Shown one piece after another: positions 14,407-40,420 of a DNA stretch of 51,717 nucleotides. Positions within the stretch are counted from its first letter, which is position 1. Each line of letters starts with the position of its first letter. The stretch comes from Elusimicrobiota bacterium (GTDB taxonomy: Bacteria; Elusimicrobiota; Elusimicrobia; UBA1565; UBA9628): assembly GCA_003151975.1 (NCBI GenBank), contig PLZD01000059.1, forward strand, positions 7,380 to 59,096. Direction: 5' to 3'. Made by a program: the position numbers and the translations under genes. The notes under the pieces are model-generated. The model was given only the letters and a program-made list of their open reading frames with translations, made no database searches and was not told the DNA's origin.

Positions 14407-14551
14407 TCGCATTTCCTCCAGTCCGGCAGTCCGGAACTTGAAGTCGCGCTCAAAGGTGCAACCCAAAATAACAATTAGCCTCCAAACTGGCAAGAACTAT
14501 TTTGCCCGAAAGACCTATTATTTTAGGGGGCCCTTAGACCCATAAAACGAA

Positions 14552-15617: not shown

Positions 15618-15658
15618 CACGCCTCCGGGAGTTGTTTAGCACCTAATTAAATAGGCAT

Positions 15659-15714
15659 TGGACCTATACGAGGATGGGACTAAAGGCCTATATTAAAATA
15701 GGCCAAAAGGACTA
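15659..15714 (-). repeat. Degenerate 8-nt tandem array upstream of paralogue 2
   Basis: Read on the minus strand in steps of 8 from 15714, the octamers are TAGTCCTT, TTGGCCTA, (TTTTAATA), TAGGCCTT, TAGTCCCA, (TCCTCGTA) and TAGGTCCA. Five of seven match TAGGCCTN closely and all five are in exact 8-nt phase. The array ends about 40 nt upstream of the -10 box. A related array lies at 38939-39002. Confidence 0.6.
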
Positions 15715-15786
15715 TGGGTCCACCGGGCCCAACGGGGAAGCCCAAAGACCCTCCCCGTCGAGCGCGGCGGCTGGTACTCTTAAGGC

Positions 15787-22904: not shown

Positions 22905-24404
22905 GTGAGAGGGTCATGGTTCAAGCGGGATTTGCCTCTGGCGGCCGCGTGCGCCTTTGTCTTATCCGCTCTGATGGTGCCGCTGGCCCTGCACCTTAAA
23001 TTCGACTACGACGAGTGGCTCGAGTTTCACGCGATCTGGCAGGTCGGCGCGGGCCACAAGCCTTACGTCGATTTCTACTTCGCGCGCCCGCCTTACAATT
23101 GGCTGGCTTGGGCGCCGGTCCTCAAGCTGCTGCCCGAGAAGCTCGAGTCGCTCGTGTGGCTGAGGCTCGGGAATCTTGTTTCGTCTTTTCTGGCTCTGGC
23201 GCTTTGGCTTTATGCGGCGCTTACGCGTTCGTCCGACCGGTCATGGAAAACCTGCGCTCTTGCCGCGACGGCGCTCGTCGTCCTGCAAGTCCCCGTGATC
23301 TTCACCTTCGCGCAATTTCGGCCGGACCACTTCGTTTTGGCGACGGCTATGCTCGGCTTGATGCTCATGGAGAATCCTCGGCCGGCGCGTTGGGCCGCCG
23401 CGGGCGCGTTGTTCAGCACGGGCTTGCTGCTGACGCCCAAGCTCATCCTCATCTATGGGGCCGCGGGGCTCCTCTTCGGTTTGGACCTGTGGAAAACAGA
23501 CAGGAAGCAAGCGGCGCGCTGTTTGGGTTCGCTTATCGCAAGTTTCGCCGCGGCGTTTTTGATCGTCAACGCGGCCACGATGGCTTGCGGCATCGACCTC
23601 GGGCCGTATTTCTTCGGCGTGATCGAGCGGCATCTCGCCGCGACGGCGCATTCCGGCTATCGGTTCGGGTTGGCGCGCATGATCATTTTGCGTACGGCTT
23701 ACAATCCGCTCTGGCTGCTCATTTTCGCGGGGGGGACTTACGCTTCGGTCGCGGAATTCCGCGAGCACGGCTGGCGCAGAAACAAATTCATGCTCGTGAT
23801 GCTGATATTCGCGGTGGTTCAGCCTCTGTGGGTCAAATATTTCTACGACCAGTATCTTTACACCGTCCTGCTCGTTTGGAGCCTGCCGCTGGCGCTCTTC
23901 CTTCATCGCGCTGGGAAGTGGCGAAGTCAGTCGGCGCAGGGAGCGCTGGCCGTCCTTCTGCTGGCGGGAGTCTTTCACGCCTTGCCGGAGTTTCTTGATT
24001 TCCGGCGCGACCGGCTCGGCATGGAGGAGGACGTCGCGATCGGCGACAAAATATTGGAGCTGGCTCCCGAGGGCCGGCCCGTCGCGATGCAGCCACCGCG
24101 CCACCCGGTCTTCCGCGAGGACTCGACTTTGTTCATCGACCACTCACTCACGCCCGGAGGAGGTCCCGTGACGGAACAGCTGATGAGCGGCTCCTTGATC
24201 TACGCGAAGAGCTTCAGCTACGAAGGCTATCTCGAGCAGCTCCAGCGCCGTCCGCCGAGCGTGATCTGGGTCAACACGATGTTCACGGGACCCGAATATC
24301 GCGCCGCGATCGACCAATTCACGCGCGTCCTTCATCCGAAGGACTACGAAGCGCGGGACGTCTTCGGCGTCTCGGTCCTGGTCCGACGCGCTACCAGACC
24401 CTAG
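22905..24404 (+). CDS. GT-C (ArnT/PMT-like, GT39-type) membrane glycosyltransferase
   Basis: 499 residues with about 9-11 TM segments. The first periplasmic loop has FDYDEWLEFHAIW and PYVDFYFARPPYNW, the acidic catalytic loop typical of lipid-linked-sugar glycosyltransferases (GT39/ArnT-like). The C-terminal 130 residues form a periplasmic domain. It would move a sugar from a polyprenyl-phosphate donor to lipid, protein or glycan. GTG 22905 is set by the bidirectional promoter. An in-frame start at 22857 lies before it. It overlaps the end of the convergent M13 gene by 14 bp. Confidence 0.82.
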   Translation: MRGSWFKRDLPLAAACAFVLSALMVPLALHLKFDYDEWLEFHAIWQVGAGHKPYVDFYFARPPYNWLAWAPVLKLLPEKLESLVWLRLGNLVSSFLALALWLYAALTRSSDRSWKTCALAATALVVLQVPVIFTFAQFRPDHFVLATAMLGLMLMENPRPARWAAAGALFSTGLLLTPKLILIYGAAGLLFGLDLWKTDRKQAARCLGSLIASFAAAFLIVNAATMACGIDLGPYFFGVIERHLAATAHSGYRFGLARMIILRTAYNPLWLLIFAGGTYASVAEFREHGWRRNKFMLVMLIFAVVQPLWVKYFYDQYLYTVLLVWSLPLALFLHRAGKWRSQSAQGALAVLLLAGVFHALPEFLDFRRDRLGMEEDVAIGDKILELAPEGRPVAMQPPRHPVFREDSTLFIDHSLTPGGGPVTEQLMSGSLIYAKSFSYEGYLEQLQRRPPSVIWVNTMFTGPEYRAAIDQFTRVLHPKDYEARDVFGVSVLVRRATRP

Positions 24405-26892
24405 CGGGCGCCGGGTTGACCATCGCATCCCCGGCCTGGCACGAGAAGGCCTGCGAGAACTCCGACATGTTGGACAGCGTGCCGTCGACGCGAAACTGCG
24501 AGGGCGGGTGCGGGTCGAAGGCCTCGAGGCGCGCGGCCTGGTCGGTCTGGTTTTCGCACCAGATCTGGCCGAAGCCAAGGAAGAATCTCTGCGCCGGCGT
24601 GAAGCCGTCGATCTTCTGCCCGGGCTGGCCGGCCTGCGCCTTCATGTAGGCGGCGTACGCGAGGCGAATGCCGCCGTTATCCGCCGTATTCTCGCCCAAG
24701 GTCAGCGCGCCGTTGACGTGCACGTCTTTCTTGGGATCGCCGCCCGGGTCCTTGGCGATGACGAACTTCGAGTACTGGTCGACGAGTCCTTTCGAGCGCT
24801 TCTCGAAGGCGTCTTGATCGGCCGGAGTCCACCAGTTGTTCAGGTTGCCCTTGCCGTCGTACTGATGGCCCTGGTCGTCGAAGCCGTGCGTCAGCTCGTG
24901 GCCCTCGACGGCGCCGATCGCGCCGTAGTTGGCCGCCGGATCGGCCTTGTCATCGTAGAACGGCTTCTGAAGTATGCCCGCGGGAAAGTTGATGTTGTTG
25001 TTGGCGGGGTCGTAGTACGCGTTGACGGTGGGCGGCGTCATGCCCCACTCCTTGCGGTCGGCGGGCTTGCCGATCTTGGCCAAGTCGCGCTTGGTCTCCA
25101 TTGCGGCCGAGCGGTCGATGTTGCCCAAGGCGTCGGTCTTGGAGATCTTGAGCTTAGAGTAGTCGCGCCACTTGTCGGGGTAGCCGATCTTGTTGGTCAC
25201 CTCGGAGAGCTTCTCGAGCGCCTTCTTCTGGGTCGGCGGGCTCATCCAGGCGACGCCCTTGATGTCGTCCTGCATCGCAGATTCGATCTCGCCGATCATC
25301 GCGAGAGCCGCGTCCTTGTCCTTGCCGTCGAAAGCCTGCTTGACGTAGTCGCGGCCCAAGGCGTCGCCCATGATGCCGTCGGCTTGGCCCACGCAGCGCT
25401 TCCAGCGCGGCTTCTGCTGCTTCTGCCCCGCGAGGCGCTTGCCCCAGAACGCGAAGTTCTCGCCGTCGAAGGCCGACGAGAGCATCGAGGCGCGGCCGTG
25501 GATGACCTGCCAGCGCAGGTACGATTTCCACGCCGAGAGCGGCGTGGAGGTCAGCACCGCATCGAGTTTCTGGAAGTACGGCATCGTGTTAACGTCGATC
25601 TGGACCATCTTGGGCGCCCCGAGGGCCTTGAAGTACGCCGCCCAATCGAAGGAAGGGGTGAGCGCCTCGAACTTGGAAAGCGGCGTCTTGGCGTGCGTCA
25701 GGTTCGGATCTCGGAGGCTGACGCGGTCCATGGAGATCGTCGCCAGGGCGGTTTCGACCGCGACGACTGCGCCTGACTCGGTCGCAGCTTCCTTTTTCGT
25801 GTCTCCCGCAAGCTCGAACATCTTCGCGGCGTGCTCGCCGTAGGCCTTCAGGTCGTCCTTGTGCGAGTCCTCGAGGTAATAATCCCGGTCGGGCAGCGAG
25901 TAACCGCCTTGGCCGATCGCGGCGATGTTCATCGTCGCGTTCTCGAAGTCCTGCTCCGAGCCGAAGCCGAAGATTCCGCCGAAACCCTTCGCGTGCATCT
26001 TGCCGAGCTGGGCCGCGAGGCCTTTGAGGCTTGAAAGGCTGCCGACTTTGGCGAGATCGGGCTTCAAGGGGGCCGAGCCTTTTTTCTCGATGGCCTTTTG
26101 GTCCATGCAGGCCGCGTAGATCTCGCCGAGTTTTTTCTCATCCGCGTCCTTCGCCGTGGCCGCGGTGGAGGCTTTCTCGAGGATGTCCTTGAGGATGTTC
26201 TGGTTGCGCTCGTGCAGCTCGGAGAATCGGCCCCAGCTCGACTGGTCGGACGGGATCGGATTGTTCTTGAGCCACGAGCCGCAGGCGTATTGATAGAAAT
26301 CGGCGCAGGGACTGACCGCGTGGTTGATGGCGGAAAGCTCGACTCCTGAACTCGGAGCCTTTGCCAGGGCGGGAGCGGCCCCGGGCTTCCCGGGCGCTCC
26401 GGCGGGCGGCGCGGCCACGACGGGACCTGCGACCGAGCCTGCGGCATGGTTCTGGTCGTAGAATTTGTTCTGATCGCCGACGACAAGCGCTGCCGGGAGG
26501 CTCGCCGAGACGGTCTTGGCGACTTCGTCGGCGGAGATCTTGCGCGCGGCGGCGGAGCCGTCGCCGGCGTTGGTCAGCGCGGTTTGAATCGTCAGCTTGT
26601 CGCCCCACGTCCCGGTCAGTGAATCTAAAGTTTCCTTCCTTCTGTTCGTGTCGACCTTGGCCGACCAGCCGGCCGCGGTGATCTTGACGACGGGTCCGGG
26701 CAGGACCTCGCGCGTCGAGGGCTCCGCAAGAAGCTCGCCGATGGCGAGCTGGGCGGCCTTGGCCTTGGCGTCGGTGTCGGGATTCTGGGACGGCGAGAGC
26801 TTGAGAGTGACGGTGATCTGGGGCGCTGCGGCAAAGGAAGAAACGGCGAGTCCTGCGGCCAGCATGAGGGTTAAGGGGGCGTTGATTTTCAT
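24391..26892 (-). CDS. Exported M13 (neprilysin/PepO-like) zinc metallopeptidase
   Basis: 833 residues, longer than the usual 650-700 because of an N-terminal extension of about 160 residues after the signal peptide (MKINAPLTLMLAAGLAVSSF). The extension contains a SIMPL-like beta/alpha pattern. The M13 part begins near SGVELSAINHAVSPCADFYQYACG. The active site is complete: HELTH (665-669), then GENTADNGG with the third zinc ligand, plus NNINFPAGIL upstream. It cleaves oligopeptides outside the cytoplasm. A promoter at 27059-27064 drives a transcript starting at a purine-type riboswitch 95 nt upstream. A second -10, TATCAT (26905-26910), sits 12 nt before the ATG and could give a riboswitch-free message. 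Confidence 0.94.
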   Translation of the reverse strand: MKINAPLTLMLAAGLAVSSFAAAPQITVTLKLSPSQNPDTDAKAKAAQLAIGELLAEPSTREVLPGPVVKITAAGWSAKVDTNRRKETLDSLTGTWGDKLTIQTALTNAGDGSAAARKISADEVAKTVSASLPAALVVGDQNKFYDQNHAAGSVAGPVVAAPPAGAPGKPGAAPALAKAPSSGVELSAINHAVSPCADFYQYACGSWLKNNPIPSDQSSWGRFSELHERNQNILKDILEKASTAATAKDADEKKLGEIYAACMDQKAIEKKGSAPLKPDLAKVGSLSSLKGLAAQLGKMHAKGFGGIFGFGSEQDFENATMNIAAIGQGGYSLPDRDYYLEDSHKDDLKAYGEHAAKMFELAGDTKKEAATESGAVVAVETALATISMDRVSLRDPNLTHAKTPLSKFEALTPSFDWAAYFKALGAPKMVQIDVNTMPYFQKLDAVLTSTPLSAWKSYLRWQVIHGRASMLSSAFDGENFAFWGKRLAGQKQQKPRWKRCVGQADGIMGDALGRDYVKQAFDGKDKDAALAMIGEIESAMQDDIKGVAWMSPPTQKKALEKLSEVTNKIGYPDKWRDYSKLKISKTDALGNIDRSAAMETKRDLAKIGKPADRKEWGMTPPTVNAYYDPANNNINFPAGILQKPFYDDKADPAANYGAIGAVEGHELTHGFDDQGHQYDGKGNLNNWWTPADQDAFEKRSKGLVDQYSKFVIAKDPGGDPKKDVHVNGALTLGENTADNGGIRLAYAAYMKAQAGQPGQKIDGFTPAQRFFLGFGQIWCENQTDQAARLEAFDPHPPSQFRVDGTLSNMSEFSQAFSCQAGDAMVNPAPARVW

Positions 26893-26950
26893 ATTGATCA
26901 AACTATGATACCTCGCTCAATCGAATTCGCTCTGGGTCTTAGAGCCGCAC

Positions 26951-26979: not shown

Positions 26980-26986
26980 ATAGTTC

Positions 26987-27051
26987 TCCTGGTGACGCCG
27001 GCTTGGGCCCGGCGGTGGAGGCTCCCCGACCTGATCTCGAGGATTACAGGA
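26987..27051 (-). promoter_or_regulatory. Purine-family riboswitch, probable 2'-dG-II class, copy before M13 peptidase
   Basis: Three-way junction in 65 nt. P1 is TCCTG/CAGGA and P2 is TCCTCGA/TCGGGGA with loop GATCAGG. P3 is CGCCGG/CCGGCG with loop GCCCAAG. J1/2 is TAA, J2/3 is GCCTCCAC and J3/1 is TCAC. Positions 22-72 align without gaps to the B. subtilis xpt guanine aptamer (L2 32-38, J2/3 46-53). G37 and G38 of the loop-loop contact are kept and C's are available in L3. U47 and U51 are both C, the changes linked to 2'-deoxyguanosine binding. A TATACT box ends 7 nt before P1, so the transcript begins at the aptamer. The family fold is well supported. The exact ligand is inferred. Confidence 0.8.
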
Positions 27052-27058
27052 TCGTTCA

Positions 27059-27064: not shown

Positions 27065-27098
27065 GCGGAACGCGGCAGGCCTTCCAGGAGCGACGGGC

Positions 27099-28208
27099 CT
27101 AGGCGCGAGTAGGACTTTGGTCCTGGGCGGCCGGCAGGCTGAACGAGAACCGCGAGCCCGAGTTCTGGCTGCTCTCTATGTCGAGGCGGGCGCCGTGACT
27201 GGCGAGCATGTCGCGCGCGGTCTTGAGGCCGAGCCCGAAGCCCGCGGCCATCTTCTTTCCCCGGGAAGAGCGAGTGAAGCCTTTGAGGGCTTCCTCTTGT
27301 TCCTCGGGGCTCATGCCGATGCCGTTATCCGAGATCGAGAAAAGCACGGCGATCGGCGGCTCGCCCGAGGGCTTGAGCTCGACCGCGACGCGTCCGCCGG
27401 GGCGCGTGTACTTGATCGCGTTGCCGATGAGATTGGTCAGGACGAGGTGCAGGGCGTCGGGGTCGGCGCGGACAAAGAGGGGCCGGGGCGGAAGTTTCAC
27501 CGACATTTCCATCTTTTTCTGCCGCGCCGAGGACTCGATCACGGCCAGCGCGGAGCGCGCCAGTTCCGCGGCGTCGACCCGCCGGATCTCGAGCGCGAAG
27601 TGCCCAGATTCCATGCGCGCCTCGTTAAGCAGGTTCTCGACGTCGCGCTTGAGGCTTGTGATGTTGCGGTGCAGGACGTCGTACATCTCCGCTTGATGAG
27701 GCTTGGGCTCGTCGCCCATCTCCTCTTCGAGCACGAAGATGGCCATGCCCATCGTGGTCAACGCGTTGCTGACCTCGTGGCTGACGATGGAGAGCATGTC
27801 GCTCTTTGTCTGCGCCCGAGCCTTCTCGAGGACGATGTCGGATTCCAGCATCGAGACCAGCAGAGCGACGGCCAAAAAAATGGAGAGGCAGAGCGCGGCG
27901 TTGATCAATGAGAGCTGGAGAGGCGTTAGATTCCAATCGGTCAGCCACAGCTGGTCCGTGTAGAAATTCCAGTAGTCGGACGCGAACCAAGTCGCCGCCG
28001 CGAGAATCGAAACGGAAAACCCGGCGAGCCGCCCGCAATAGCGCGCCGCGAAAGCGACGGGGATGATGTAGAAAAAATCGAAGTTGTATTCCTTGCTCGA
28101 TCCGTGATGGAACAGGCCCACGAGCAATAGAATCAGGAGGCCGAGCCCCAGCGAGACGCGGGGCGAGCGGTCGAGCCAATCATCCAGGGCAAGCGTAAAT
28201 TTCGGCAT
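27099..28208 (-). CDS. Membrane sensor histidine kinase (paralogue A)
   Basis: 369 residues. Three or four TM segments (about 19-120) with little periplasmic sequence form a MASE-like input. HisKA follows with H144 in SIVSHEVSNAL. The HATPase domain has an N-box LIGNAIKYT, G1 DNGIGM and G2 GFGLGLKTA. The phosphotransfer and ATP sites are complete. No response regulator is adjacent. The protein shares layout and the SHE-x-x-NA H-box with the kinase at 49400. It lies 53 nt downstream of the MurU-like gene on the same strand, so it may be co-transcribed with the cell-wall recycling pair. Confidence 0.92.
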   Translation of the reverse strand: MPKFTLALDDWLDRSPRVSLGLGLLILLLVGLFHHGSSKEYNFDFFYIIPVAFAARYCGRLAGFSVSILAAATWFASDYWNFYTDQLWLTDWNLTPLQLSLINAALCLSIFLAVALLVSMLESDIVLEKARAQTKSDMLSIVSHEVSNALTTMGMAIFVLEEEMGDEPKPHQAEMYDVLHRNITSLKRDVENLLNEARMESGHFALEIRRVDAAELARSALAVIESSARQKKMEMSVKLPPRPLFVRADPDALHLVLTNLIGNAIKYTRPGGRVAVELKPSGEPPIAVLFSISDNGIGMSPEEQEEALKGFTRSSRGKKMAAGFGLGLKTARDMLASHGARLDIESSQNSGSRFSFSLPAAQDQSPTRA

Positions 28209-31217: not shown

Positions 31218-32753
31218 ATGAGAAATATCCGACTCGCCGCGCTCGTCGTGTCCGCCGCGATCCTGGTCAGCGCCGCGGCGTCGGCGCAAATGTTTCCCGG
31301 CGTCGGCTTCAGCACGGCGCCGCCCACGGCCGACGAGCTCGCCCTCAAGAGGCTCATGACGGAGAACGCGCTCGAGCGCGAGCGCAACTTCCAGAGGCTC
31401 AAGAAGCTCACCGACGAGCGCGACGAGCTGCAGATCCGCTCGATGATTCTGTCCGAGAGGCAGCGGCTCGAGACCGCGGACCTAGACCAGGAGCTCAAGA
31501 AGCTCTCGATTCAGAATTCCATCGCGGGCGAGAAGGAGCGGCTCGCCAACGAGCCCCGCGAAGCGCAATACAAAAGCCTCACGCTGGACAACAACCTGAC
31601 CTCGGAGAGGGCGCGCGCGGCGCTGACCGACGAGCGCGGCGCCTACGACAAGCTCGCCCTCGACAACAACATGGCCTCCGAAAAGCTGAAGATGACCATG
31701 GCCGACGAGCGCAGCGTCTTCGACAAGCTCTACCTCGACAACAATCTCGCCTCCGAGAAGCTCCGCTTGAGCCTGGCGCCCCAGCGCGAGGCGACCGAGA
31801 AGCTGCGCGTCGACAACGACCTCAAGCGCCAGCAGCTCGACGCCCAAGTCATCAAGGACGACGCCGAGAAGGCTTCCATCGACATGGAGATGCGGCGGAT
31901 CGACTTCGAGGAGCGCAAGCTGCGCTACGAGGCGGCCCAGATGGACCACAAGACCGTGGCGCTCAAGGATGATCTGGAAGTCCGCTCGCAGAAGGAGAAA
32001 TGGAAAGCCGAGGCCAACCGCGAGCCCGACTACGTTTTGGAACCCTTCAAAGACGGGCGCCTGGTCGTCTCGGACCGCCGGATCGCGCTCAACGGGGTCA
32101 TCATCTCAGGCACCGCCGACTACGTGACCGAGCGCATCGAGTACTTCAACAACAAATCCGAGACCCTGCCCATCTTCATCGTCATCGACGACTGCCCGGG
32201 CGGCTCGGTCATGCAGGGCTACCGCATCGTCAAGGCGATCAAGGCGAGCAAGGCGCCCGTGCACGTGGTCGTGAAATCCTTCGCGGCCTCGATGGCCGCG
32301 GTCATCACGACGCTGGCGCCGCACTCGTACGCATATCCCAACGCGGTCATCCTGCACCACCAGATGTCCACGATGGTCTGGGGCAACATGACCAATATTA
32401 AGGAGCAGCTCGAACTCGCCAAGGAGTGGTACAAGCGCCTGGCCGAGCCCGTGGCCGAGAAGATGGGCGTGAGCCAAGACGAGATGGTCAAGGAGATGTA
32501 CAAGCACAACTCCGAAGGCAACTGGGAAGAGTTCGCCGACAAGGCCAAGAAGCTCCACTGGGTCGACAACATCGTCGACGACATCCGCGAGACCGGCGTC
32601 GTCAAGCAGCCCACGAGCGAGGCCCCGGTCTTTAAGTGGTTCTTCAACCAGAAAGAGGAGGTCGATCCCAAGGGCGAGCGCTATGTGACTCTGCCCCGGC
32701 TCGATCCGTTCGACTTCTACTACCTCTACAACCCCGACCATTACTACCGCTAA
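31218..32753 (+). CDS. Exported ClpP-like serine protease with long coiled-coil N-terminus
   Basis: 511 residues. A signal peptide (MRNIRLAALVVSAAILVSAA) is followed by about 230 residues of charged coiled coil. These contain three or four repeats of about 24 residues of the form LDNNLxSEKxRxxLxDERxxxDKL (about 122-205). Residues about 275-490 are a ClpP/crotonase fold: DCPGGSV, nucleophile S358 in SFAASMAAV, and H381 in ILHHQM. The third triad residue is not obvious, because the region after the handle helix reads HNSEGNWEEF rather than the usual Asp segment. It resembles ClpP rather than SppA in the Ser motif, yet it is exported, where ClpX/ClpA partners are absent. Shine-Dalgarno GAGGAG precedes the ATG. 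Confidence 0.83.
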   Translation: MRNIRLAALVVSAAILVSAAASAQMFPGVGFSTAPPTADELALKRLMTENALERERNFQRLKKLTDERDELQIRSMILSERQRLETADLDQELKKLSIQNSIAGEKERLANEPREAQYKSLTLDNNLTSERARAALTDERGAYDKLALDNNMASEKLKMTMADERSVFDKLYLDNNLASEKLRLSLAPQREATEKLRVDNDLKRQQLDAQVIKDDAEKASIDMEMRRIDFEERKLRYEAAQMDHKTVALKDDLEVRSQKEKWKAEANREPDYVLEPFKDGRLVVSDRRIALNGVIISGTADYVTERIEYFNNKSETLPIFIVIDDCPGGSVMQGYRIVKAIKASKAPVHVVVKSFAASMAAVITTLAPHSYAYPNAVILHHQMSTMVWGNMTNIKEQLELAKEWYKRLAEPVAEKMGVSQDEMVKEMYKHNSEGNWEEFADKAKKLHWVDNIVDDIRETGVVKQPTSEAPVFKWFFNQKEEVDPKGERYVTLPRLDPFDFYYLYNPDHYYR

Positions 32754-34150
32754 GGTTTGTCTTTGACGAGTCTTAGCAGTTCGGGCCCCGTGGTCTCGCC
32801 GACGCGGTGCGCGAACACGCGGCGTTCGGGGTCTATCACCACGATTTTCCCGAGCGCGGAAAGCTCCGCGGGCTCGATGACGCCGCGATAGCCGGGCAAG
32901 CGCGCGTAGCGGCCGTCTCCGGGCGTCAGATCGAGCAGGAGATGCCGGCGCTCGGGCAGATAGTGGGAGCGCAGCGCCGCGTACTCGAGCGCGCCCCAAT
33001 GCACGACGGGCTCATCTGCCGGGGAAGCGCGGCGCACGAAGGCGCTCAAGGCGTCCAGCCTTGGATCGAAGACGAGATTCGAGGCGAAATACGCGCAGGT
33101 CCCACAGATCGCCGCGCCCGCCAAGCCGATGCGCGCGACGGCGCTCCAAGGCCCTTTGAGCGCGCGCTCCGCGCTCAACGCGAGAAGCGGATAGACCGAA
33201 AGTCCGAGGAAAATCAGATAGCGCGCCTGGAACGCGGGCTTGCCGTTGATCCAGCCGACGACGGCGGCCGCGGCCAAGGGCACGGCGATGTTGACGAGGC
33301 AGAAGCGCAGCTCGCTCTTCAGGCGCCAAACGCCGGCCGCGCCGAGCGTTGCGGCCGCGAGGCCGATGGCCAGCAAAGTCCTCGGCAAGGCCAGCGCCAT
33401 GTAGGCCGGATCGAAAAGGAAAGAGCCGAGCAGGCGCCCGAGCGTGACCGCGTTTAAGGGCTCGTTCTGAAACCAAATTCCGAGCGCCATGCGCCTCTGC
33501 GCGAGCGCGGCGAGTAAGCCGGGCATGAAGCAAAGTCCGGCCGCGGCGTGCGCGGCAAGCCAGGGCGCGAGCCTCTTTCTTTCCGGAGGATTGACGAAAA
33601 GTCCGAGAAGGAAAAATCCGTAGAAATAATGCGTGTAGAGTCCGCACGCCGCGAGCGCGGCGTAGAGAAGCGCCTCGCGGCCGGACCAGCCCTCGCGCAA
33701 CCGCAAGGCGACCAGCATCTGGCCCGCCGCAAGCAACAGCACGAGCGAATAGCAGCGGCCCGTCTGGGCTCCGTGAATCCAGAGCGAGGAGAACGCGCCC
33801 AGGAAAAACGCCAAAGTCGCCGCGGCCGGCGCGAGCCTTCGGCAGAGCGACCAATACAGCGGCAAGGCCGCGATCCCGCAAAGCGCCGAAAACAGTCGCA
33901 AGCCGATCATCGCGTCGGGCCAAGGCGGCAGCCAGAACCGCATCAATAAAAAGTGCAGGGCCGGAGTCGTCTCGAGCGAAGCGACCAGGCCGGGGATGTC
34001 GGAGGCGGGCTGACGCGCGATCATCAAGGTGACCGCCTCGTCGGACCACAGCGAGGGCCGGCCGAGCCAAAGCAGGCGGGCAAGCGCTCCCAGCGCCAGC
34101 ACGCCCGCCGCCGCTGGATTGCGGCGGACCCAGTCCTTGGCTGCTCTCAT
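32750..34150 (-). CDS. GT-C (GT39/ArnT-like) membrane glycosyltransferase
   Basis: 466 residues with about 10 TM segments. The first loop carries SLWSDEAVTLMIA with the catalytic-type acidic pair, as in GT39/GT83 polyprenyl-phosphate-sugar transferases. The C-terminal 100 residues are soluble. ATG 34150 is chosen over the longer ORF because TATACT (34158-34163, minus) lies 7 nt upstream. It overlaps the end of the ClpP-like gene by 4 bp. It is a distant relative of the GT-C protein at 22905; donor and acceptor are unknown. Confidence 0.82.
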   Translation of the reverse strand: MRAAKDWVRRNPAAAGVLALGALARLLWLGRPSLWSDEAVTLMIARQPASDIPGLVASLETTPALHFLLMRFWLPPWPDAMIGLRLFSALCGIAALPLYWSLCRRLAPAAATLAFFLGAFSSLWIHGAQTGRCYSLVLLLAAGQMLVALRLREGWSGREALLYAALAACGLYTHYFYGFFLLGLFVNPPERKRLAPWLAAHAAAGLCFMPGLLAALAQRRMALGIWFQNEPLNAVTLGRLLGSFLFDPAYMALALPRTLLAIGLAAATLGAAGVWRLKSELRFCLVNIAVPLAAAAVVGWINGKPAFQARYLIFLGLSVYPLLALSAERALKGPWSAVARIGLAGAAICGTCAYFASNLVFDPRLDALSAFVRRASPADEPVVHWGALEYAALRSHYLPERRHLLLDLTPGDGRYARLPGYRGVIEPAELSALGKIVVIDPERRVFAHRVGETTGPELLRLVKDKP

Positions 34151-34157
34151 ACCGGCG

Positions 34158-34206
34158 AGTATAGCGAAAATGAGACCTTGACGATCCTGGCTTCCGGGGT
34201 TATCCT
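34158..34206. promoter_or_regulatory. Divergent leaderless promoters
   Basis: Minus-strand TATACT (34158-34163) is 7 nt before the glycosyltransferase ATG. Plus-strand TATCCT (34201-34206) is 6 nt before the S1/P1 nuclease ATG. No Shine-Dalgarno on either side. Confidence 0.68.
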
Positions 34207-34212
34207 TCACGT

Positions 34213-35253
34213 ATGCGACCCCTCGCACCGCGCATTGCGCTGTTAGCCGTTTCCTGCCTTTGGATTCCTGCCTCCTGCTTCGCCTGGTCCCACGACGAGC
34301 ACAGCGCCATCGCCGACCGCGCGATGACGTTGCTCCAGCAGCAGAACTCGCCCGCGGTGACGGCCATCGCGCAGATCCTTCCCGCGGGCGCGACTCTGGC
34401 GTCGATCGCGCCTTGCGCCGACGACATCCGCCACCCTCCGAAGGGCGCCGGTGCGACCACGACTTGCGGCGGCCTGACTTTGGCGTGGAACTCGGCGAGC
34501 GAACCCTGGCATTTCATCGACGAGCCGGTCTCCGAGAATCCGGCGAGCGCCTCCGACATGCAGAAATATTGCGCCGGAGGCAATTGCATCATCGGCGCGT
34601 TTCATAACCAGCTGCAAATACTGACGGGAAAGGCGCCGGGCGACAAGGCCACGGCCCTGATGTTCGTCGTGCATCTCGTCGGCGACGCGCACCAGCCTCT
34701 GCATTGCGCCACCCAGCTGGTCCTGGATTCCAGCGGCAATCCTCAGCCCGATCCCAAGCGCCCGGGAAAAATGCTCAGCGACGGCGGCGGCAACGCCAAG
34801 GCGGTCTCGATCCCGGGCACGACCCCGAAGTATCCGCTTGAAATGCACTCGCTTTGGGATCAAGACATGCAGGCCGCGGACGTCCCGGGCATAGACTTGT
34901 CGGGCGCTTCTTGGCAAAGCCTCGATCCGGGAACGACGCCTGACGCCGTGGTCGCCCAGGCCGCGTTCGAGAGCTTCGGCATCGCCCGGACGGTGATCTA
35001 CCCGAACTACACCGATTCAAACGCCGCGAACAATCCCGACGCCATGCCGCTCGCCTCCGACGGCGTCACGCGGATCGTGACGCCGAAGTATCAGTCGGAC
35101 ATGAGGGGGCTCGCCGAGCTGCGCCTGCAGTTGGCCGCGGTCCGCCTGGCGGCCATACTCGACAACGCGTTGGCCGGCGCGCCCCAGACGGGGTCTGCGC
35201 CCGCGCAAAGTCTGGGCTCGGGAAAGGGAGCGGCGGTCAGGACGCCATGGTGA
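34213..35253 (+). CDS. Secreted S1/P1 nuclease (copy 1)
   Basis: 346 residues with a signal peptide ending FA, so that mature protein begins with W25, whose main chain is a zinc ligand in this family. Other ligands are visible: H30, a D in APCADDIRH, H in PWHFIDEP, H and D in VVHLVGDAHQPLHC, and H/D in MHSLWDQD. S1/P1 enzymes cut single-stranded DNA and RNA and have 3'-nucleotidase activity. A 60-residue insertion (DPKRPGKM..) sits before the DGGGNAKAV segment. The second copy follows after 4 nt, so they form an operon under the leaderless promoter at 34201. Confidence 0.94.
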   Translation: MRPLAPRIALLAVSCLWIPASCFAWSHDEHSAIADRAMTLLQQQNSPAVTAIAQILPAGATLASIAPCADDIRHPPKGAGATTTCGGLTLAWNSASEPWHFIDEPVSENPASASDMQKYCAGGNCIIGAFHNQLQILTGKAPGDKATALMFVVHLVGDAHQPLHCATQLVLDSSGNPQPDPKRPGKMLSDGGGNAKAVSIPGTTPKYPLEMHSLWDQDMQAADVPGIDLSGASWQSLDPGTTPDAVVAQAAFESFGIARTVIYPNYTDSNAANNPDAMPLASDGVTRIVTPKYQSDMRGLAELRLQLAAVRLAAILDNALAGAPQTGSAPAQSLGSGKGAAVRTPW

Positions 35254-35257
35254 AACT

Positions 35258-36253
35258 ATGAAAATCGCTACCAAGTCGGGGCGAGCGGCGCTGGCGGCGT
35301 TGGTGCTGTTGTGGCCGCAGCTCCTGATGGCTTGGTCGGAAAACGGCCATCGCATCGTCGGCCAGATCGCGCAGGATTTGTTGACGAAGGATCCCGGCGG
35401 CGCCAACGCCATCGCCGGCATCAAGGACGTGATGGGCGCGAGCTACGGCCCGAACGCCCTGGCCAACATCGCGCCCTGCGCGGATTTCGTGCGCCACGCA
35501 AACGAGGACGGCTCGGCGGTCCCCGATGCGGGGGGCACGATCAACTGCGGCGGGCTGACCATCCCCGTCGAACCCGAGAGCGCGCCCTGGCATTTCGTCG
35601 ACGTGCCGATTACCGAGTCGGCCGACTCGGTCGGGAATTTTTGCGGCGCGAAGGGCTGCGTGATCAGCGCGATCTCAAACGCCGTCTCCGTCCTGCAGAC
35701 CAGCGCCGTGCAGGCCGACCGGCAGAAGCAGTTGATGTATCTCGTGCACTTCGTGGGCGATGCGCATCAGCCTCTGCATTGCGCCTATGCCGTCCTTTCG
35801 GACGGCAGTCCCGACCGCGGCGGCAATTGCGAGCACATCCGCTACGGCGGCAAGTCGATGGCCTTCCACGCGTTGTGGGATCATCGGCTCAACGCGGCGG
35901 ATGCGCCCAATTGGCAAGCGGAGGCGCAGCGGTTGGAGGGCGGCGCTTCGGTTCCGACCGTCACGAACGCGGGCGCTGTCGCATTGCAGGCGGCCACCGA
36001 AAGCTTCCAGGACGGCCACGACGTCATGAACGAGTTCCTGCAGCTTCCCAACGCCGCAGCCCAGCAGTGTACGAGGACTCCGGGCCAGCGCATTCCATCG
36101 GTCGTCCTGCCGGACGGTTATGAGGGCCAGTATGCCGCCAAGATCGACGAGCGCCTGCAGATGGCGGGCGCTCGGCTGGCGGGGCTCTTGAAGCTCGCCT
36201 TCGGCGGCAACGGCCAGGCGCCGCGGATTATCTCAAGGGCTGTGGCGCCTTAA
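35258..36253 (+). CDS. Secreted S1/P1 nuclease (copy 2)
   Basis: 331 residues; same family as the upstream gene but clearly diverged. The signal peptide ends MA before W26. Ligand motifs are H31 (WSENGHRIV), APCADFVRH, PWHFVDVPI, LVHFVGDAHQPLHC, DRGGNCEHI and FHALWDH. All nine zinc-ligand positions appear to be present, so it should be active on nucleic acids outside the cytoplasm. Six cysteines suggest disulphides. Its 3' end overlaps the convergent PLC-like gene by 26 bp. Confidence 0.94.
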   Translation: MKIATKSGRAALAALVLLWPQLLMAWSENGHRIVGQIAQDLLTKDPGGANAIAGIKDVMGASYGPNALANIAPCADFVRHANEDGSAVPDAGGTINCGGLTIPVEPESAPWHFVDVPITESADSVGNFCGAKGCVISAISNAVSVLQTSAVQADRQKQLMYLVHFVGDAHQPLHCAYAVLSDGSPDRGGNCEHIRYGGKSMAFHALWDHRLNAADAPNWQAEAQRLEGGASVPTVTNAGAVALQAATESFQDGHDVMNEFLQLPNAAAQQCTRTPGQRIPSVVLPDGYEGQYAAKIDERLQMAGARLAGLLKLAFGGNGQAPRIISRAVAP

Positions 36254-37610
36254 GCCCGGCCAACGCCGGGAGCGAGAACCGCAGGTACTTCTCCGGGGAG
36301 CGGCCGACGTTTCCCACGGCATCGGACGCCGACACTCGGAATCCATAGAGTCCTCCGCCGGCGGGCGCGGCGAACTCCGTAGAGGCTCCCTGAGGCTTCG
36401 CGTCGACGGTCCGCCAATCCGTCCAAGAATTTCCGTTCCAGCGCCGGTACTCGAACCGGTAGCTTCTCCGGTCGACGCCGCTTTGCGCGTCAACGGCTGA
36501 GGCATGCAGGATCACGCGCTGGATCGAGGTCTGGTCCGGGCTCTTGGGATCGGAGGAATTCAGGGAATCCAGCTTGACCTCGGGCGCCGTGTGATCGATC
36601 TGCTTGAAAAAGTAGACGAACAGCGCGGCGACCCGTTTGTAGGCCAACGGCATCAAGACGCGGCCCTCTTCCTTGAGCTGCGCCTCCTTGAAGTGGGTCT
36701 TGCGGCGTCGCCCGCGATCCGCATCGCCGTCGACTCCCAGAAGGCCGGGGCCGTTGCCCGCGTCATAGTGGTGCGTGATCTCTCCGGTCTTGCGGAAAAT
36801 CTCATAGAGCGTCGAAAATGATTCGACGGGCCCTTCCGGCACTTGAAGCCACTCGGCGTAGTGGTCTCCCATGTAGGACTCGTACATGTCGGAGTTGTGG
36901 AAGGGGTGCGCCCAGAGCAGGTTGTGCGCGGGAACGGTCAAGTCTTCGAGGAGATGCGCGACGTGGCCGAGATACCAGTAGGCCTTGGCCTTGTCTCCTT
37001 TCCTATATAAAGACAGGACGCCGAGGCCCTTGGTCCCGCGGTGCGCGCCGGAATTGTCGCTCCAGTCCTTATCGTACTTGCCGTTGATGCCGTAGCCGCC
37101 GGACCAATACTTGTGCGCCCTGTTCACGGAACTGTCGAAGCCGAGCCAGCCGGCGTAGTCGCCCTTTTTGTAGTTCCAGAAATGCCGGTTGAACGACATG
37201 ATGTCGTTGAAGGGGTTGAGGTTGGCCTTGTCCTCTTCGTAGGAGCCGGAGATCACGGTGTTGTGGCCTTCCCCGGGCTTGTCGCCCGAGATGCCGCCGA
37301 TGAAGCTCTCCAGTTCTCCGCCCTCGTATTGGGCCGCGTACATCTCGTAGGCCGTGCGCGTGATGTGCATGTGCGCCACAGTGCTGTGCTCGGCTTCGAC
37401 GGGCTTGTTCGGGTCGTCGGTCGGCTCCGACGGCGGCTCGTCGGCCGGAGCGGCGGCCACCGGCGGCAGCGCCGGCGCGCCTTCGTCCTTGACCTGCGCC
37501 CAATCGGACTTGAAATAGTTTTCGCGCAGGGATGACCCGCTCGTCTGGATCGCGGCGAAAGAAACGGTCGAGAGGAGAAGGGCCAGGGCGGAGAGGGCGA
37601 TTTTTTTCAT
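36228..37610 (-). CDS. Exported zinc-dependent phospholipase C-like protein with C-terminal Ig-like domain
   Basis: 460 residues with a signal peptide (MKKIALSALALLLSTVSFA). Residues about 75-345 show the zinc phospholipase C / S1-P1 fold. It has HMHITRTAYEMY with an early His, LGHVAHLLEDLTVPAH with the central zinc cluster (H..H...ED), then HYAEWLQ. Residues about 350-455 are an Ig/FN3-like domain (SAVDAQSGVDRRSYRFEY), often used to bind surfaces. Probable substrate: phospholipid or another phosphodiester. Shine-Dalgarno AAGGAGG lies 9 nt before the ATG, in contrast to the leaderless neighbours. Confidence 0.85.
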   Translation of the reverse strand: MKKIALSALALLLSTVSFAAIQTSGSSLRENYFKSDWAQVKDEGAPALPPVAAAPADEPPSEPTDDPNKPVEAEHSTVAHMHITRTAYEMYAAQYEGGELESFIGGISGDKPGEGHNTVISGSYEEDKANLNPFNDIMSFNRHFWNYKKGDYAGWLGFDSSVNRAHKYWSGGYGINGKYDKDWSDNSGAHRGTKGLGVLSLYRKGDKAKAYWYLGHVAHLLEDLTVPAHNLLWAHPFHNSDMYESYMGDHYAEWLQVPEGPVESFSTLYEIFRKTGEITHHYDAGNGPGLLGVDGDADRGRRRKTHFKEAQLKEEGRVLMPLAYKRVAALFVYFFKQIDHTAPEVKLDSLNSSDPKSPDQTSIQRVILHASAVDAQSGVDRRSYRFEYRRWNGNSWTDWRTVDAKPQGASTEFAAPAGGGLYGFRVSASDAVGNVGRSPEKYLRFSLPALAGLKAPQPLR

Positions 37611-37630
37611 GCGTGCGGCCTCCTTGTTAT

Positions 37631-38896
37631 TTATGGGACCATCGGGTCATCGGTGAAGAGCTGGCCGGCGATGGCGCGCGCGGCTCTTTCCGCGGCGGTG
37701 ACCTTGTGGCTCAGAATGCGCCGGCTTTGCCGCAGATCGGGCTCGAAGAGCTTGGCGTTGACCGTGGACGCCAGGCGGGCGTCGGTGGCGACGATGTTGA
37801 GCTCGTCGTTGTGGACCAGGCTTCGGGGATCGAGATTCGAGGAGCCGAAGGTGGTCCAATAGTCGTCGATGACCGCGACCTTCTCGTGCGCCATGCGGTT
37901 CTGGTATTCGTAGACCTCGGCGCCCGCCGAGAGCAGGTCGGGATAGAAGGCGCGCGAGGCGTCCTGCATGAGCTTGATGTTGTTCTTCGCCGGCAAAACG
38001 ATTTGGACTTTCACTCCGCGGCGCGCGGCGGTCTCCAGAGCCTTAATGACGCCCGCGTCCACGAAGTAGGGGTCCGCGATGCGGATGAGCTTCTGCGAGG
38101 TCGCAAACGCCGCGAGATACGCGCGCCGGATGTTCTGATCGTGGTCGGCGCCTAGGTGCGCGACGACGCGCGTCTGCGCGCCGTCGGGCTGGTCGGCCGA
38201 GGGGGGCAGCAGGTTCTCACCCGGCTCGGTCGTTCCGCCCACCGCTTGCCACTGCGAGAGAAACGCCTTCTGGAGCAGGGCCACCGCGGGTCCCCGGATC
38301 AACGACTGCTGATCGTGCCATTGCTCTTGATAAGTCTCGCCGATGTTCATGCCGCCGGTAAATCCGATGAGCCCGTCGACGACCATGACTTTGCGGTGGT
38401 CCAGGTGCGTGTCGAGCGGCGGCGCGGGGCGCACCAGCACATGCACGCCTTCGCCGCGCAGATAGCCGAGGAGCGCTTTGACGTCTTGGTGGTCCGTGTT
38501 CGAGCCCTTGGCGTCGAGCAGCACGCGCACGCGCACGCCCCCAGCGGCTTTTTTCGCCAGCACGCGGGCCAGCGACCAGCCGATCTTGTCGGCTTGATAT
38601 TGGAAGACTTCGATGTGGATCGAGTTGCGGGCGCCCGAGACCGCGGCCAGCGCCGGAGCCATGACCTCGCGGTCGACGAGAAAATCGATCGAGTTCTTGC
38701 CCGCGTTTTGTGCGCCCGCGGATGCGTCGATGTAGGCGAGATATCCAAGCCAGTCGCCGGGCGTGAACACGGGCTTGGCCATAACCGCAATGGTCGGCGC
38801 GCCGCGTTGGAACTTGAAGGCGACCGGGCTCGGCGCCCAGTCTTGCGCCGACGCCGTCGCGCCGATCACGAGCAAAAAGGAGGCGATCATCCTCAC
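37631..38896 (-). CDS. Exported PLD-superfamily protein (cardiolipin synthase-like, two HKD motifs)
   Basis: 421 residues with a short signal peptide (MRMIASFLLVIGATASAQ). HKD motif 1 is HRKVMVVD with GFTGGMNIG after it, and motif 2 is HEKVAVID with FGSSNLDPRS. This pairing matches cardiolipin synthase-type PLDs, but such enzymes are normally membrane-bound and cytoplasm-facing. Export suggests a secreted phospholipase D or nuclease role. GTG 38896 lies 6 nt after TAGACT (38903-38908, minus). ATG 38890 is also possible. The PLC-like gene follows after 20 nt but has its own Shine-Dalgarno. Confidence 0.87.
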   Translation of the reverse strand: MRMIASFLLVIGATASAQDWAPSPVAFKFQRGAPTIAVMAKPVFTPGDWLGYLAYIDASAGAQNAGKNSIDFLVDREVMAPALAAVSGARNSIHIEVFQYQADKIGWSLARVLAKKAAGGVRVRVLLDAKGSNTDHQDVKALLGYLRGEGVHVLVRPAPPLDTHLDHRKVMVVDGLIGFTGGMNIGETYQEQWHDQQSLIRGPAVALLQKAFLSQWQAVGGTTEPGENLLPPSADQPDGAQTRVVAHLGADHDQNIRRAYLAAFATSQKLIRIADPYFVDAGVIKALETAARRGVKVQIVLPAKNNIKLMQDASRAFYPDLLSAGAEVYEYQNRMAHEKVAVIDDYWTTFGSSNLDPRSLVHNDELNIVATDARLASTVNAKLFEPDLRQSRRILSHKVTAAERAARAIAGQLFTDDPMVP

Positions 38897-38938
38897 TTCG
38901 CGAGTCTAGCAAAAGCCGAAATGAAGGGAAAGAGGAAA

Positions 38939-39002
38939 TAGGTCGTTAGGCCTATGTCATTCTAGGCCCTTAGGGACTTGCGGCCTGGGCCTTTTAGGCT
39001 AT
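38939..39002 (+). repeat. Degenerate 8-nt tandem array over the riboswitch promoter
   Basis: TAGG occurs at 38939, 38947, 38963, 38971 and 38995: spacings 8, 16, 8 and 24, all multiples of 8. In phase the octamers are TAGGTCGT, TAGGCCTA, (TGTCATTC), TAGGCCCT, TAGGGACT, (TGCGGCCT), (GGGCCTTT) and TAGGCTAT. Consensus TAGGCCTT. The last unit overlaps the -10 box, so a protein bound here would directly affect transcription. Confidence 0.65.
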
Positions 39003-39005
39003 CCT
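38978..39005 (+). promoter_or_regulatory. Promoter of the riboswitch-HKD nuclease transcript
   Basis: -35 TTGCGG (38978-38983), 16-bp spacer, -10 TATCCT (39000-39005). The aptamer P1 begins 7 nt later at 39013, which should be the transcription start. The -35 resembles that at 31160. Confidence 0.65.
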
Positions 39006-39012
39006 CATGACA

Positions 39013-39077
39013 TCCTGTAATCCTCGAGATCAGGTCGAGGAGCATCCACCGCCGGGCCTAATCCGGCGTCACCAGGG
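39013..39077 (+). promoter_or_regulatory. Purine-family riboswitch, probable 2'-dG-II class, copy before HKD nuclease
   Basis: Same 65-nt architecture as the minus-strand copy at 26987-27051. P1 is TCCTG/CAGGG and P2 is TCCTCGA/TCGAGGA with loop GATCAGG. P3 is CGCCGG/CCGGCG with loop GCCTAAT. J2/3 is GCATCCAC and J3/1 is TCAC. The copies differ at only five positions. Two are in stems and keep pairing (P2 U-A versus U-G, P1 U-G versus U-A); the rest fall in J2/3 and L3. In xpt numbering positions 47 and 51 are C and 74 is C, as expected for a guanine-base ligand with a deoxyribose. J3/1 is two nt longer than in xpt. Ligand assignment is inferred. Confidence 0.82.
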
Positions 39078-39099
39078 GATAAAGGCCGTCGTAGGGCCG

Positions 39100-39148
39100 G
39101 CTTCTCTGGCAAACCATGAGAAGCTTCTCTGAGGAGGACTATCTCATG
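39100..39148 (+). other. Possible translational expression platform before the HKD nuclease
   Basis: Hairpin GCTTCTCTGG-CAAA-CCA-t-GAGAAGC (39100-39124). Its 3' part CATGAG (39115-39120) is also complementary to CTCATG (39143-39148), which contains the start codon and would enclose the Shine-Dalgarno GAGGAGG (39131-39137). The two folds exclude each other, as expected of a riboswitch that gates translation. This is a reading of the sequence, not a calculated fold. Confidence 0.45.
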
Positions 39149-40420
39149 AAGAAGATGCAACCGGTCGGGAAGCTCGCCGCAGCCGCACTTCTCGCCTTGC
39201 TGGTTCCCCAAGCAACGATGGCGGCCGACATGTCGGCGTTCCTGGAGAATCTCGATCTCGGCAAGAGCGGGGTCTTCTCGGATATCTCGACGGTCCGCGC
39301 GCCCAAAGCGCCGTGGAGCCCCTCGCATACTCCCGCGCGTCCGCCGCAGCCCAAGCCCGCCCCCAATCCCGGCGGCGGCTCGAGCGCCGGAAGCGTTTCG
39401 CTCAACGGGACGACTCTGCCGAGCTTCATCTTCACGGGCCGCGGCGGCGACGTCTCGGCGCAAGTCGCGGCCGCGATAGACGCGTCCCGAATCTCGGTGA
39501 ACGTGGCGCTCTACACGCTGACGCTTCCTAATGTGGCCGACTCGCTGGTGCGCGCCAAACAGCGCGGCGTGGCCGTGCAGGTCGTCTACGATTTCGGTCA
39601 CTCATCGAGCGCGGGCGGCGCGAGCGTCGGTTCGCAGCCGAGCGCGGGAGCTTCCGAGAAGATCGGCCAGCTGCTCTCCGCCGGCATACCCGTTCGCGTC
39701 CTGCGCGGCTCGGGCCCCTACGGCATCATGCACAATAAATTCGCCGTCATCGACGGCCAGCTCGTCGAGACCGGTTCGTTCAACTGGACGACGGCGGCCG
39801 ACACGAAGAACCACGAGAACGCGTTGTTTCGCACGGACGGAAATCTGATCGCCGACTATCAAGCGTACTTCGATTGGATGTGGCGCCAGGCCGGTCAGGC
39901 CGGCGGCGGCTCGGCTCCCGGACCGACGGGCACCCCGCCGTCCTGCGCCGACGGCCCGTCGGCTCTCGGCCGGACATGGCCCGAATGTTCGTTCTCTCCC
40001 GGCGGCCCCACCGAGGCGCTCATCGCGCAGGCCATCGGCTTGGCCAAGACGCGCGTGCACATCGCGATGTTCAGCTTCACCTCGCCGTCGATCGTGCAGG
40101 CGATCATCGCCGCGAATAACCGCGGCGTCGACGTTATGCTCGTCTTCGACCGCCTGCAGGCGAAGACCGAGGCGGGCCTTAAACCCCTGCAGGACGCGGG
40201 CGTGCCTTATCGCTTGAACTCGGGACTCGGCGGCAGCGGCGGCGTGCTGCACGACAAGTTCGGGCTCTTTGACGATCTGCTCGAGACCGGCTCGTTCAAC
40301 TATACGACCAACGCGAGCCAGAACAACTTCGAGAACGCGTTTTTCTCATCGGCTTCGTCGGACCTGGACGGCTACGAGTCGGAGTTCCAGGCGATCTACG
40401 CGGAGGGATCGAACTCCTAG
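39146..40420 (+). CDS. Secreted tandem-HKD PLD-superfamily nuclease/phospholipase
   Basis: 424 residues: signal peptide (MKKMQPVGKLAAAALLALLV), a Pro/Gly linker (about 60-90), then two PLD repeats. Repeat 1 has HNKFAVID followed by TGSFNWT, and repeat 2 has HDKFGLFD followed by TGSFNYT. The MHNKFxxxD...GSFNWT form is that of the Nuc-like endonuclease branch rather than classic lipid-cutting PLD, so DNA is a likely substrate. The two repeats form one active site in such enzymes. Expression is probably gated by the 2'-deoxyguanosine-type riboswitch upstream. ATG 39146 has an ideal Shine-Dalgarno. The preceding in-frame ATG at 39116 lies inside the leader hairpin. Confidence 0.88.
   Translation: MKKMQPVGKLAAAALLALLVPQATMAADMSAFLENLDLGKSGVFSDISTVRAPKAPWSPSHTPARPPQPKPAPNPGGGSSAGSVSLNGTTLPSFIFTGRGGDVSAQVAAAIDASRISVNVALYTLTLPNVADSLVRAKQRGVAVQVVYDFGHSSSAGGASVGSQPSAGASEKIGQLLSAGIPVRVLRGSGPYGIMHNKFAVIDGQLVETGSFNWTTAADTKNHENALFRTDGNLIADYQAYFDWMWRQAGQAGGGSAPGPTGTPPSCADGPSALGRTWPECSFSPGGPTEALIAQAIGLAKTRVHIAMFSFTSPSIVQAIIAANNRGVDVMLVFDRLQAKTEAGLKPLQDAGVPYRLNSGLGGSGGVLHDKFGLFDDLLETGSFNYTTNASQNNFENAFFSSASSDLDGYESEFQAIYAEGSNS

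Follow-up and report, generated by a model that had tools for sequence, protein, structure and literature searches.

We analyzed a 51,717-nucleotide stretch of an Elusimicrobiota genome (contig PLZD01000059.1 of assembly GCA_003151975.1; hereafter the window), in which five genes lie side by side at positions 34213-40420 and code for two S1/P1 nucleases, a phospholipase C (PLC)-like protein, a cardiolipin-synthase-like phospholipase D (PLD) and a tandem-HKD protein of the Nuc/NucT type. The last of these genes is preceded by an aptamer of the 2'-dG-II class of riboswitches, named for 2'-deoxyguanosine (2'-dG), and a second such aptamer precedes the gene for an M13 peptidase elsewhere in the window (Table 1). 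A preliminary description had taken the five genes and the riboswitch to be one module. Our results point instead to the window probably containing two members of a dispersed regulon, marked by palindrome arrays and a 2'-dG-II ON switch, rather than a gene cluster.

Table 1. Features of the window (positions counted from its first letter; PWM, position weight matrix score of the palindrome; SD, Shine-Dalgarno sequence)
Feature	Position	Strand	Evidence and remarks
2'-dG-II aptamer 1	39010..39080	+	RF03165 71.7 bits, E 1.6e-16
Element able to pair with the P1 3' strand	39101..39110	+	Duplex -11.2 kcal/mol; no U tract
Predicted sequestor hairpin	39115..39149	+	Over SD 39132-39138 and AUG 39146
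Tandem-HKD (Nuc/NucT-like) protein	39146..40420	+	Predicted signal peptide; PLDc_2 157 bits in two stretches, cut-off 27; riboswitch target
Operator array, three copies	38939-38955, 38963-38979, 38986-39002		PWM 9.4, 15.6, 7.3; spacing 24 and 23
2'-dG-II aptamer 2	26984..27054	-	RF03165 61.9 bits; 82 nt before M13 peptidase
M13 peptidase, predicted exported	24391..26901	-	Peptidase_M13_N 417 bits, Peptidase_M13 232 bits; behind aptamer 2
Operator array, two copies	27085..27126		PWM 10.0, 5.5; spacing 24; upstream of aptamer 2
Operator array without aptamer	14501..14543		PWM 10.7, 9.0
Operator array without aptamer	15650..15753		PWM up to 13.0
S1/P1 nuclease a	34213..35253	+	PF02265 (S1-P1_nuclease) 118 bits, cut-off 29.5; predicted signal peptide
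S1/P1 nuclease b	35258..36253	+	PF02265 140 bits; predicted signal peptide; starts 4 nt after a
PLC-like protein	36228..37610	-	Predicted signal peptide; C-terminal fibronectin type III (FnIII)/Ig-like module; second gene of PLD-PLC pair
Cardiolipin-synthase-like PLD	37631..38896	-	Predicted signal peptide; PLDc_2 141 bits, cut-off 27; 20 nt upstream of PLC gene

A deoxynucleoside-type riboswitch near 39013 and a second copy before the M13 peptidase had been proposed in the preliminary description, and the RF03165 covariance model of the 2'-dG-II class (cut-off 60 bits) recovered both. Passages of PMC8872408 give C51 and C74/C78 as the specificity bases of the class; both window aptamers carry the segments UGUA, UCCAC and ACCA, which supply U22 in J1/2, C51 in J2/3 and C74/C78 in J3/1. 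The same positions are nearly invariant among the 83 sites scoring at least 60 bits, with UGUA in J1/2 of 82 and CCA in J2/3 of all 83. Seven 2'-dG-II aptamers are present in the genome as a whole. Across a set of 57 genomes comprising this one and 56 relatives, 30 have a match at E 0.01 (27 over the cut-off), and across 340 genomes of the Elusimicrobiota it occurs in 96 at 1e-6 (88 over the cut-off), in up to 9 copies. A pattern scan of named genomes matched at least 110 stretches; among 80 matches listed, 68 belong to Elusimicrobia, Elusimicrobiales or Elusimicrobiota, 11 are labeled only 'bacterium' and one comes from Balneola, while viral contigs gave no match to the pattern. The Balneola sp. 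metagenome-assembled genome, outside the phylum, has a 57.9-bit 2'-dG-II-like aptamer (L195:1-4006) 47 nt before the gene for an exported protein with lamin-tail (LTD), Exo_endo_phos and C-terminal sorting domains. Weak elements of the same kind (52.3 and 31.8 bits) also stand before an IS1595-type zinc-ribbon protein (L122:487-1490 and L130:7700-8727).

To survey the target genes, 100 of 102 aptamers were placed in sequence stretches, 97 of them with a first gene, forming 39 clusters; 52 non-duplicate sites from the pattern scan were added and sites under 45 bits removed, which gave a set of 146 sites, with genes called by our own open reading frame (ORF) scorer in place of a standard gene finder. 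In this genome the seven aptamers stand before genes for an exported protein resembling tyrosine phosphatases, for GTP cyclohydrolase II, a receiver domain, the HKD protein and an S8 protease, for an endonuclease-like exported protein whose HNH_5 match is weak and below the cut-off, and for the M13 protease. Examination of first genes revealed a clear bias towards export: 64 of 123 are predicted to code for exported proteins, compared with 212 of the 1163 remaining genes in these loci (odds ratio 4.9, p 2.5e-15), and 39 of 70 when one first gene is counted per cluster. These figures come from a stricter signal-peptide rule that replaced a permissive one, under which the counts were 81 of 123 and 610 of 1258. 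Among the 146 sites, ComEC-like metallo-beta-lactamase (MBL) proteins follow 16 aptamers (the one tested matched the C-terminal part of the ComEC_Rec2 model at 108 bits, below its cut-off of 190), endonuclease-like proteins 7, the families that we term cluster 1 and cluster 2 7 each, phosphatase-like proteins 5 and HKD proteins 4, and proteases of the S8, M13, trypsin, M48 and S41 types each lead single sites.

Two further kinds of targets are operonic. Type IV secretion system (T4SS) genes lie behind 5 of the 146 aptamers (TraG P-loop 143 bits; coupling protein domains), and 13 are followed by peptide-type operons, defined by at least two of a solute-binding protein, a histidine kinase and a radical SAM or YcaO maturase; Pfam matches were checked on examples, in which YcaO fell just under the cut-off. 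Some of the latter open with a signal-like peptide of about 60 residues. In the aptamer-led operons L071, L083 and L086, a gene for a small uncharacterized protein with an EYPYCTMYGV-type motif precedes those for TraC/TraG-type ATPases and coupling proteins. Those of L247, L204, L037, L046 and L266 combine a family-5 solute-binding protein or variant, a radical SAM/YcaO maturase and a histidine kinase, and the first four also hold a small signal-like peptide of 55-66 residues; judged by this gene content, modified-peptide signaling is a possible function.

The aptamers fall into two subtypes by position 24, which is A in 28 of 32 sites with enzyme-type targets, while sites leading the lipoprotein, cluster 1 and cluster 2 targets have 10 A and 33 G. 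We considered two ligand classes as the cause and rejected this: the ligand-contacting bases are the same in both subtypes, so lineage history is enough to explain the split in targets.

The many copies before genes for secreted enzymes, conjugation and peptide-signaling-like functions suggest that these bacteria may sense free DNA and respond by exporting proteins. The aptamers might instead respond to intracellular 2'-dG arising from turnover of the cell's own or phage DNA under stress, infection or starvation, in which case the regulon would be a stress or defence response. Indeed, sensing requires 2'-dG to be present within the cell, certain targets are cytosolic (GTP cyclohydrolase II, the receiver domain and cluster 1), and the ComEC-like MBL protein also weakly matches the Avs1a and 6A-MBL defence models. 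However, such a response sits poorly with about half of the first genes being called exported as against 18% of controls, and we regard it as unlikely, though deserving of attention.

The leaders downstream of the aptamers point to the direction of the response. In 76 of the 144 leaders of sufficient length for this test, the 3' strand of stem P1 has its complement and then a U tract downstream, as in a terminator, compared with 103 of 2880 dinucleotide shuffles; within 40 nt such P1-competing terminators occur in 74 leaders versus 33 in shuffles. Since P1 and the terminator are mutually exclusive, binding of the ligand should give read-through, and by this folding logic 2'-dG should switch the genes ON. 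Another 46 folded leaders are without a P1-competing terminator, and here formation of P1 opens the SD region in 16 and closes it in 3. The HKD leader, in which a consensus scan of 38850-39200 found no terminator, is predicted to work at the level of the ribosome site. According to the energy model, pairing of the P1 3' strand with the element at 39101-39110, which can alternatively pair with about 39114-39125, leaves 39115-39129 available to mask both the SD and the AUG; the AUG is predicted to be unpaired with a probability of 0.02-0.12 when P1 is barred and 0.38-0.96 when it is formed, the values varying with the length folded. Elsewhere in the genome, the GTP cyclohydrolase II gene (C27; L098:7009-7659) lies directly behind a 78-bit aptamer, and its leader SD is predicted to be open at 0.52 with P1 and at 0.13 without it.

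The opposite polarity, with 2'-dG turning the genes OFF so that nuclease production stops once there is enough nucleoside, would agree with the feedback OFF switches that are common among guanine riboswitches and with the 18 of 95 folded leaders in which formation of P1 closes the SD region. Yet 15 of these 18 carry a P1-competing terminator, and SD accessibility would not be expected to report on switching in such leaders; moreover, in the 76 leaders noted above P1 would break the terminator that contains its 3' strand; hence we hold an OFF switch to be improbable.

A second potential layer of control emerged upstream of the aptamers, most of which are preceded by a 17-bp palindrome close to TAGGYCY-N3-RGRCCYA. 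Matches covering at least 9 of the 12 positions are found within 130 nt of 100 of the 146 sites, with a density of 1.05 per 130 nt as against 0.057 elsewhere in the loci, and the commonest distance between successive copies is 23-25 nt. With a PWM threshold of 8, in a matrix derived from the same upstream regions on which it was scored, 118 of 146 sites have one palindrome and 45 a pair; the remaining 1.57 Mb of the loci has 403 single matches and 38 pairs. The loci contain 66 distinct arrays, 51 with an aptamer nearby and 15 without; three of the latter (two in L116, one in L117) precede weak aptamers missed by the pattern, and aptamer-free arrays are also found before three S8 proteases, a C11 protease, an M48 protease and a PLC-like gene of the relative G038. 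The window has four arrays, compared with 0 or 1 in each of 20 shuffled windows. Of its two aptamer-free arrays, the one at 14501-14543 precedes a protein of no assigned function with a signal-like N-terminus (13408-14466, minus strand), and that at 15650-15753 lies between two divergent genes (14612-15556, minus; 15787-17553, plus) whose products both have a signal-like N-terminus and no Pfam match. An exact search of the genome for single operators returned 16 forward matches and 12 in the control, which provides no measure of regulon size.

Returning to the five-gene run, the ORFs, orientations, domains and predicted signal peptides (the last by our own sequence rule) bear out the five adjacent exported phosphodiesterases of the preliminary description, apart from the zinc PLC label. 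S1/P1 nuclease b matches S1/P1 nucleases in PDB with E values down to 2.7e-14. The HKD protein, whose start at ATG 39146 fits a GAGGAGG at 39132-39138 (the longer ORF described earlier begins at 39116), recovers the Nuc endonuclease 1byr (E 2.2e-20) and NucT 6ehi (1.3e-12); its score with the NucT equivalog model is below the cut-off (88.8 bits vs 297), and so we call it Nuc-like rather than NucT. The PLD protein likewise misses the cardiolipin synthase equivalog cut-offs (201 bits, TIGR04265 201.5, and 181 bits, against 290 and 281). For the PLC-like protein, Pfam, NCBIfam and single-sequence PDB searches returned no match. A 9-sequence profile against PDB placed phospholipase C at the top of the list at E 0.02-0.05 only, with chitinase A1 at E 0.19 and an FnIII-type module at the C-terminal end, and the spacing H219-x3-D223-x5-H229 is invariant in all 9 sequences. 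No phospholipase C family model exceeded its cut-off, and accordingly the protein is termed PLC-like; its single-sequence AlphaFold model had a predicted local distance difference test score (pLDDT) of 37.9. Kinship with S1/P1 was tried by profile comparison and rejected (probability 1.9). Just outside the run, a protein at 31218-32753 has a signal-like N-terminus and a C-terminal ClpP-like domain (67.5 bits).

Adjacency of all five genes, each with a predicted signal peptide, is what would recommend a single co-regulated system digesting external DNA and phospholipid, as would the operator array located between the PLD-PLC pair and the HKD gene and the array 24 nt before the start of the PLC homologue in G038. 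However, the orientations (two plus, two minus, one plus) place the genes in at least three transcription units, and of the five only the HKD gene is led by the aptamer at 39010. Homologues of S1/P1 occur in 24, of the PLC-like protein in 11, of PLD in 48 and of HKD in at least 46 of the 57 genomes, yet they lie apart in the relatives, and in the homologue places listed none of the 56 has the run. The tandem S1/P1 pair recurs in one relative (G035), and four genomes of one genus (g6), which is without a 2'-dG-II aptamer, have S1/P1 beside a different, longer PLD protein. None of the 146 aptamers has an S1/P1 or PLC homologue within 6 kb downstream on the same strand, and no operator array precedes the S1/P1 pair at 34050-34213. 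A single five-gene system is therefore very doubtful. The S1/P1 pair appears to lie outside the riboswitch and operator regulon, with no sign of membership; the PLD-PLC pair may be connected to it through the operator array alone, given that the position of the array at 38939-39002 would let it share the regulator and not the riboswitch. The earlier idea, in which a deoxynucleoside sensor governs exported enzymes for the digestion of DNA, lipid and protein, survives at the level of the regulon, in which aptamers precede exported nuclease-like proteins and proteases and operator arrays lie beside the PLD-PLC genes here and the PLC homologue of G038, but not as a module of these five genes.

From the aptamers, target genes, terminator overlap and operators, which can be read directly from the sequence, we infer a ligand, a direction in cells, a regulator and a role for the dispersed regulon as follows. 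In each member, an array of 17-bp palindromes, the putative site of a DNA-binding regulator, would be followed by a promoter and then by the aptamer. 2'-dG, the nucleoside left by DNA degradation, would enter the cytoplasm and stabilize P1, which would prevent either a transcription-ending hairpin, as in roughly half of all leaders, or a hairpin hiding the ribosome site, as predicted for the HKD gene, and thereby turn the gene ON. The products would often be exported, including HKD, HNH-like and ComEC-like nuclease-type proteins, proteases and lipoproteins, and elsewhere in the phylum T4SS and peptide-signaling-like operons would come under the same switch. The likely role would be sensing of lysed neighbors or free DNA, followed by extracellular digestion, DNA transfer and signaling. 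More broadly and more tentatively, 2'-dG could be a lysed-cell signal in Elusimicrobiota, with a two-layer regulon of 24-nt-spaced palindrome arrays with a dedicated regulator and a 2'-dG ON riboswitch driving a secretome of nucleases, proteases and lipoproteins, conjugation and modified-peptide signaling, as a cue for feeding and gene exchange.

Several observations weigh against this interpretation. With respect to targets, 59 of the 123 first genes are not called plain exported proteins, the commonest target is a lipoprotein family of unknown function (31 of 146; its model, pLDDT 72.7, has no PDB match at E 0.001, the best being 0.05), GTP cyclohydrolase II and the IS1595-like gene fit poorly, and related sites are not independent. 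With respect to switching, 68 of the 144 leaders have no P1-competing terminator under the rule used, SD accessibility shows no trend over all 95 folded leaders (24 open, 18 close, 53 change little), and in the HKD leader the change at the SD is small and a clear difference is confined to the AUG. The M13 leader has an aptamer barely over the cut-off and no P1-competing element was found in it; no promoter passed a consensus scan of 38850-39200; and genome-wide operator pairs allowing 3 mismatches number 89 against 107 in the reversed control, again no measure of regulon size.

The 2'-dG-II class has a solved structure, and its biology amounts to a short gene list in the literature passages covered. 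A phylum with many copies, defined targets and a readable ON mechanism makes the purpose of the class testable, and, if our interpretation is true, a nucleoside would act as a released-DNA cue controlling secretion, conjugation and peptide signaling in a phylum known mostly from metagenomes. The passages of PMC8872408 (2022) place the class in Bacteroidetes and list receiver domain, PLD, ComEC and endonuclease I genes after it; those of PMC9295807 and PMC9481103 add nothing further on targets. Our search, in which subscription journals were mostly outside the scope, found no account of this regulon or operator. The aptamer model, specificity bases and PLD, ComEC, endonuclease I and receiver targets agree with these passages of PMC8872408, and the pairing of the HKD gene with its riboswitch adds a new member to the known PLD/2'-dG-II association. 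In contrast to the Bacteroidetes and four gene kinds named there, the aptamers described here are mainly from Elusimicrobiota, where one genome may hold up to 9, and come with predicted ON-type platforms, an operator layer and a range of targets that takes in proteases, lipoproteins, T4SS genes and peptide-type operons. Within the literature searched, the features that appear to be new are the host phylum, the predicted ON design, the bias towards secreted products, the T4SS and peptide-type operons and the layer of operators. The HKD protein resembles the Nuc/NucT nucleases of the PLD family in its HKD motifs, its match to 1byr (E 2e-20) and its signal peptide, and differs in having two HKD halves in one chain and riboswitch control, its nuclease role being putative. 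The adenine riboswitch is an ON switch that acts by terminator disruption, its P1 3' strand being shared with the terminator. By analogy, the leaders described here would employ the same P1-terminator sharing, though with a different ligand pocket and different targets.

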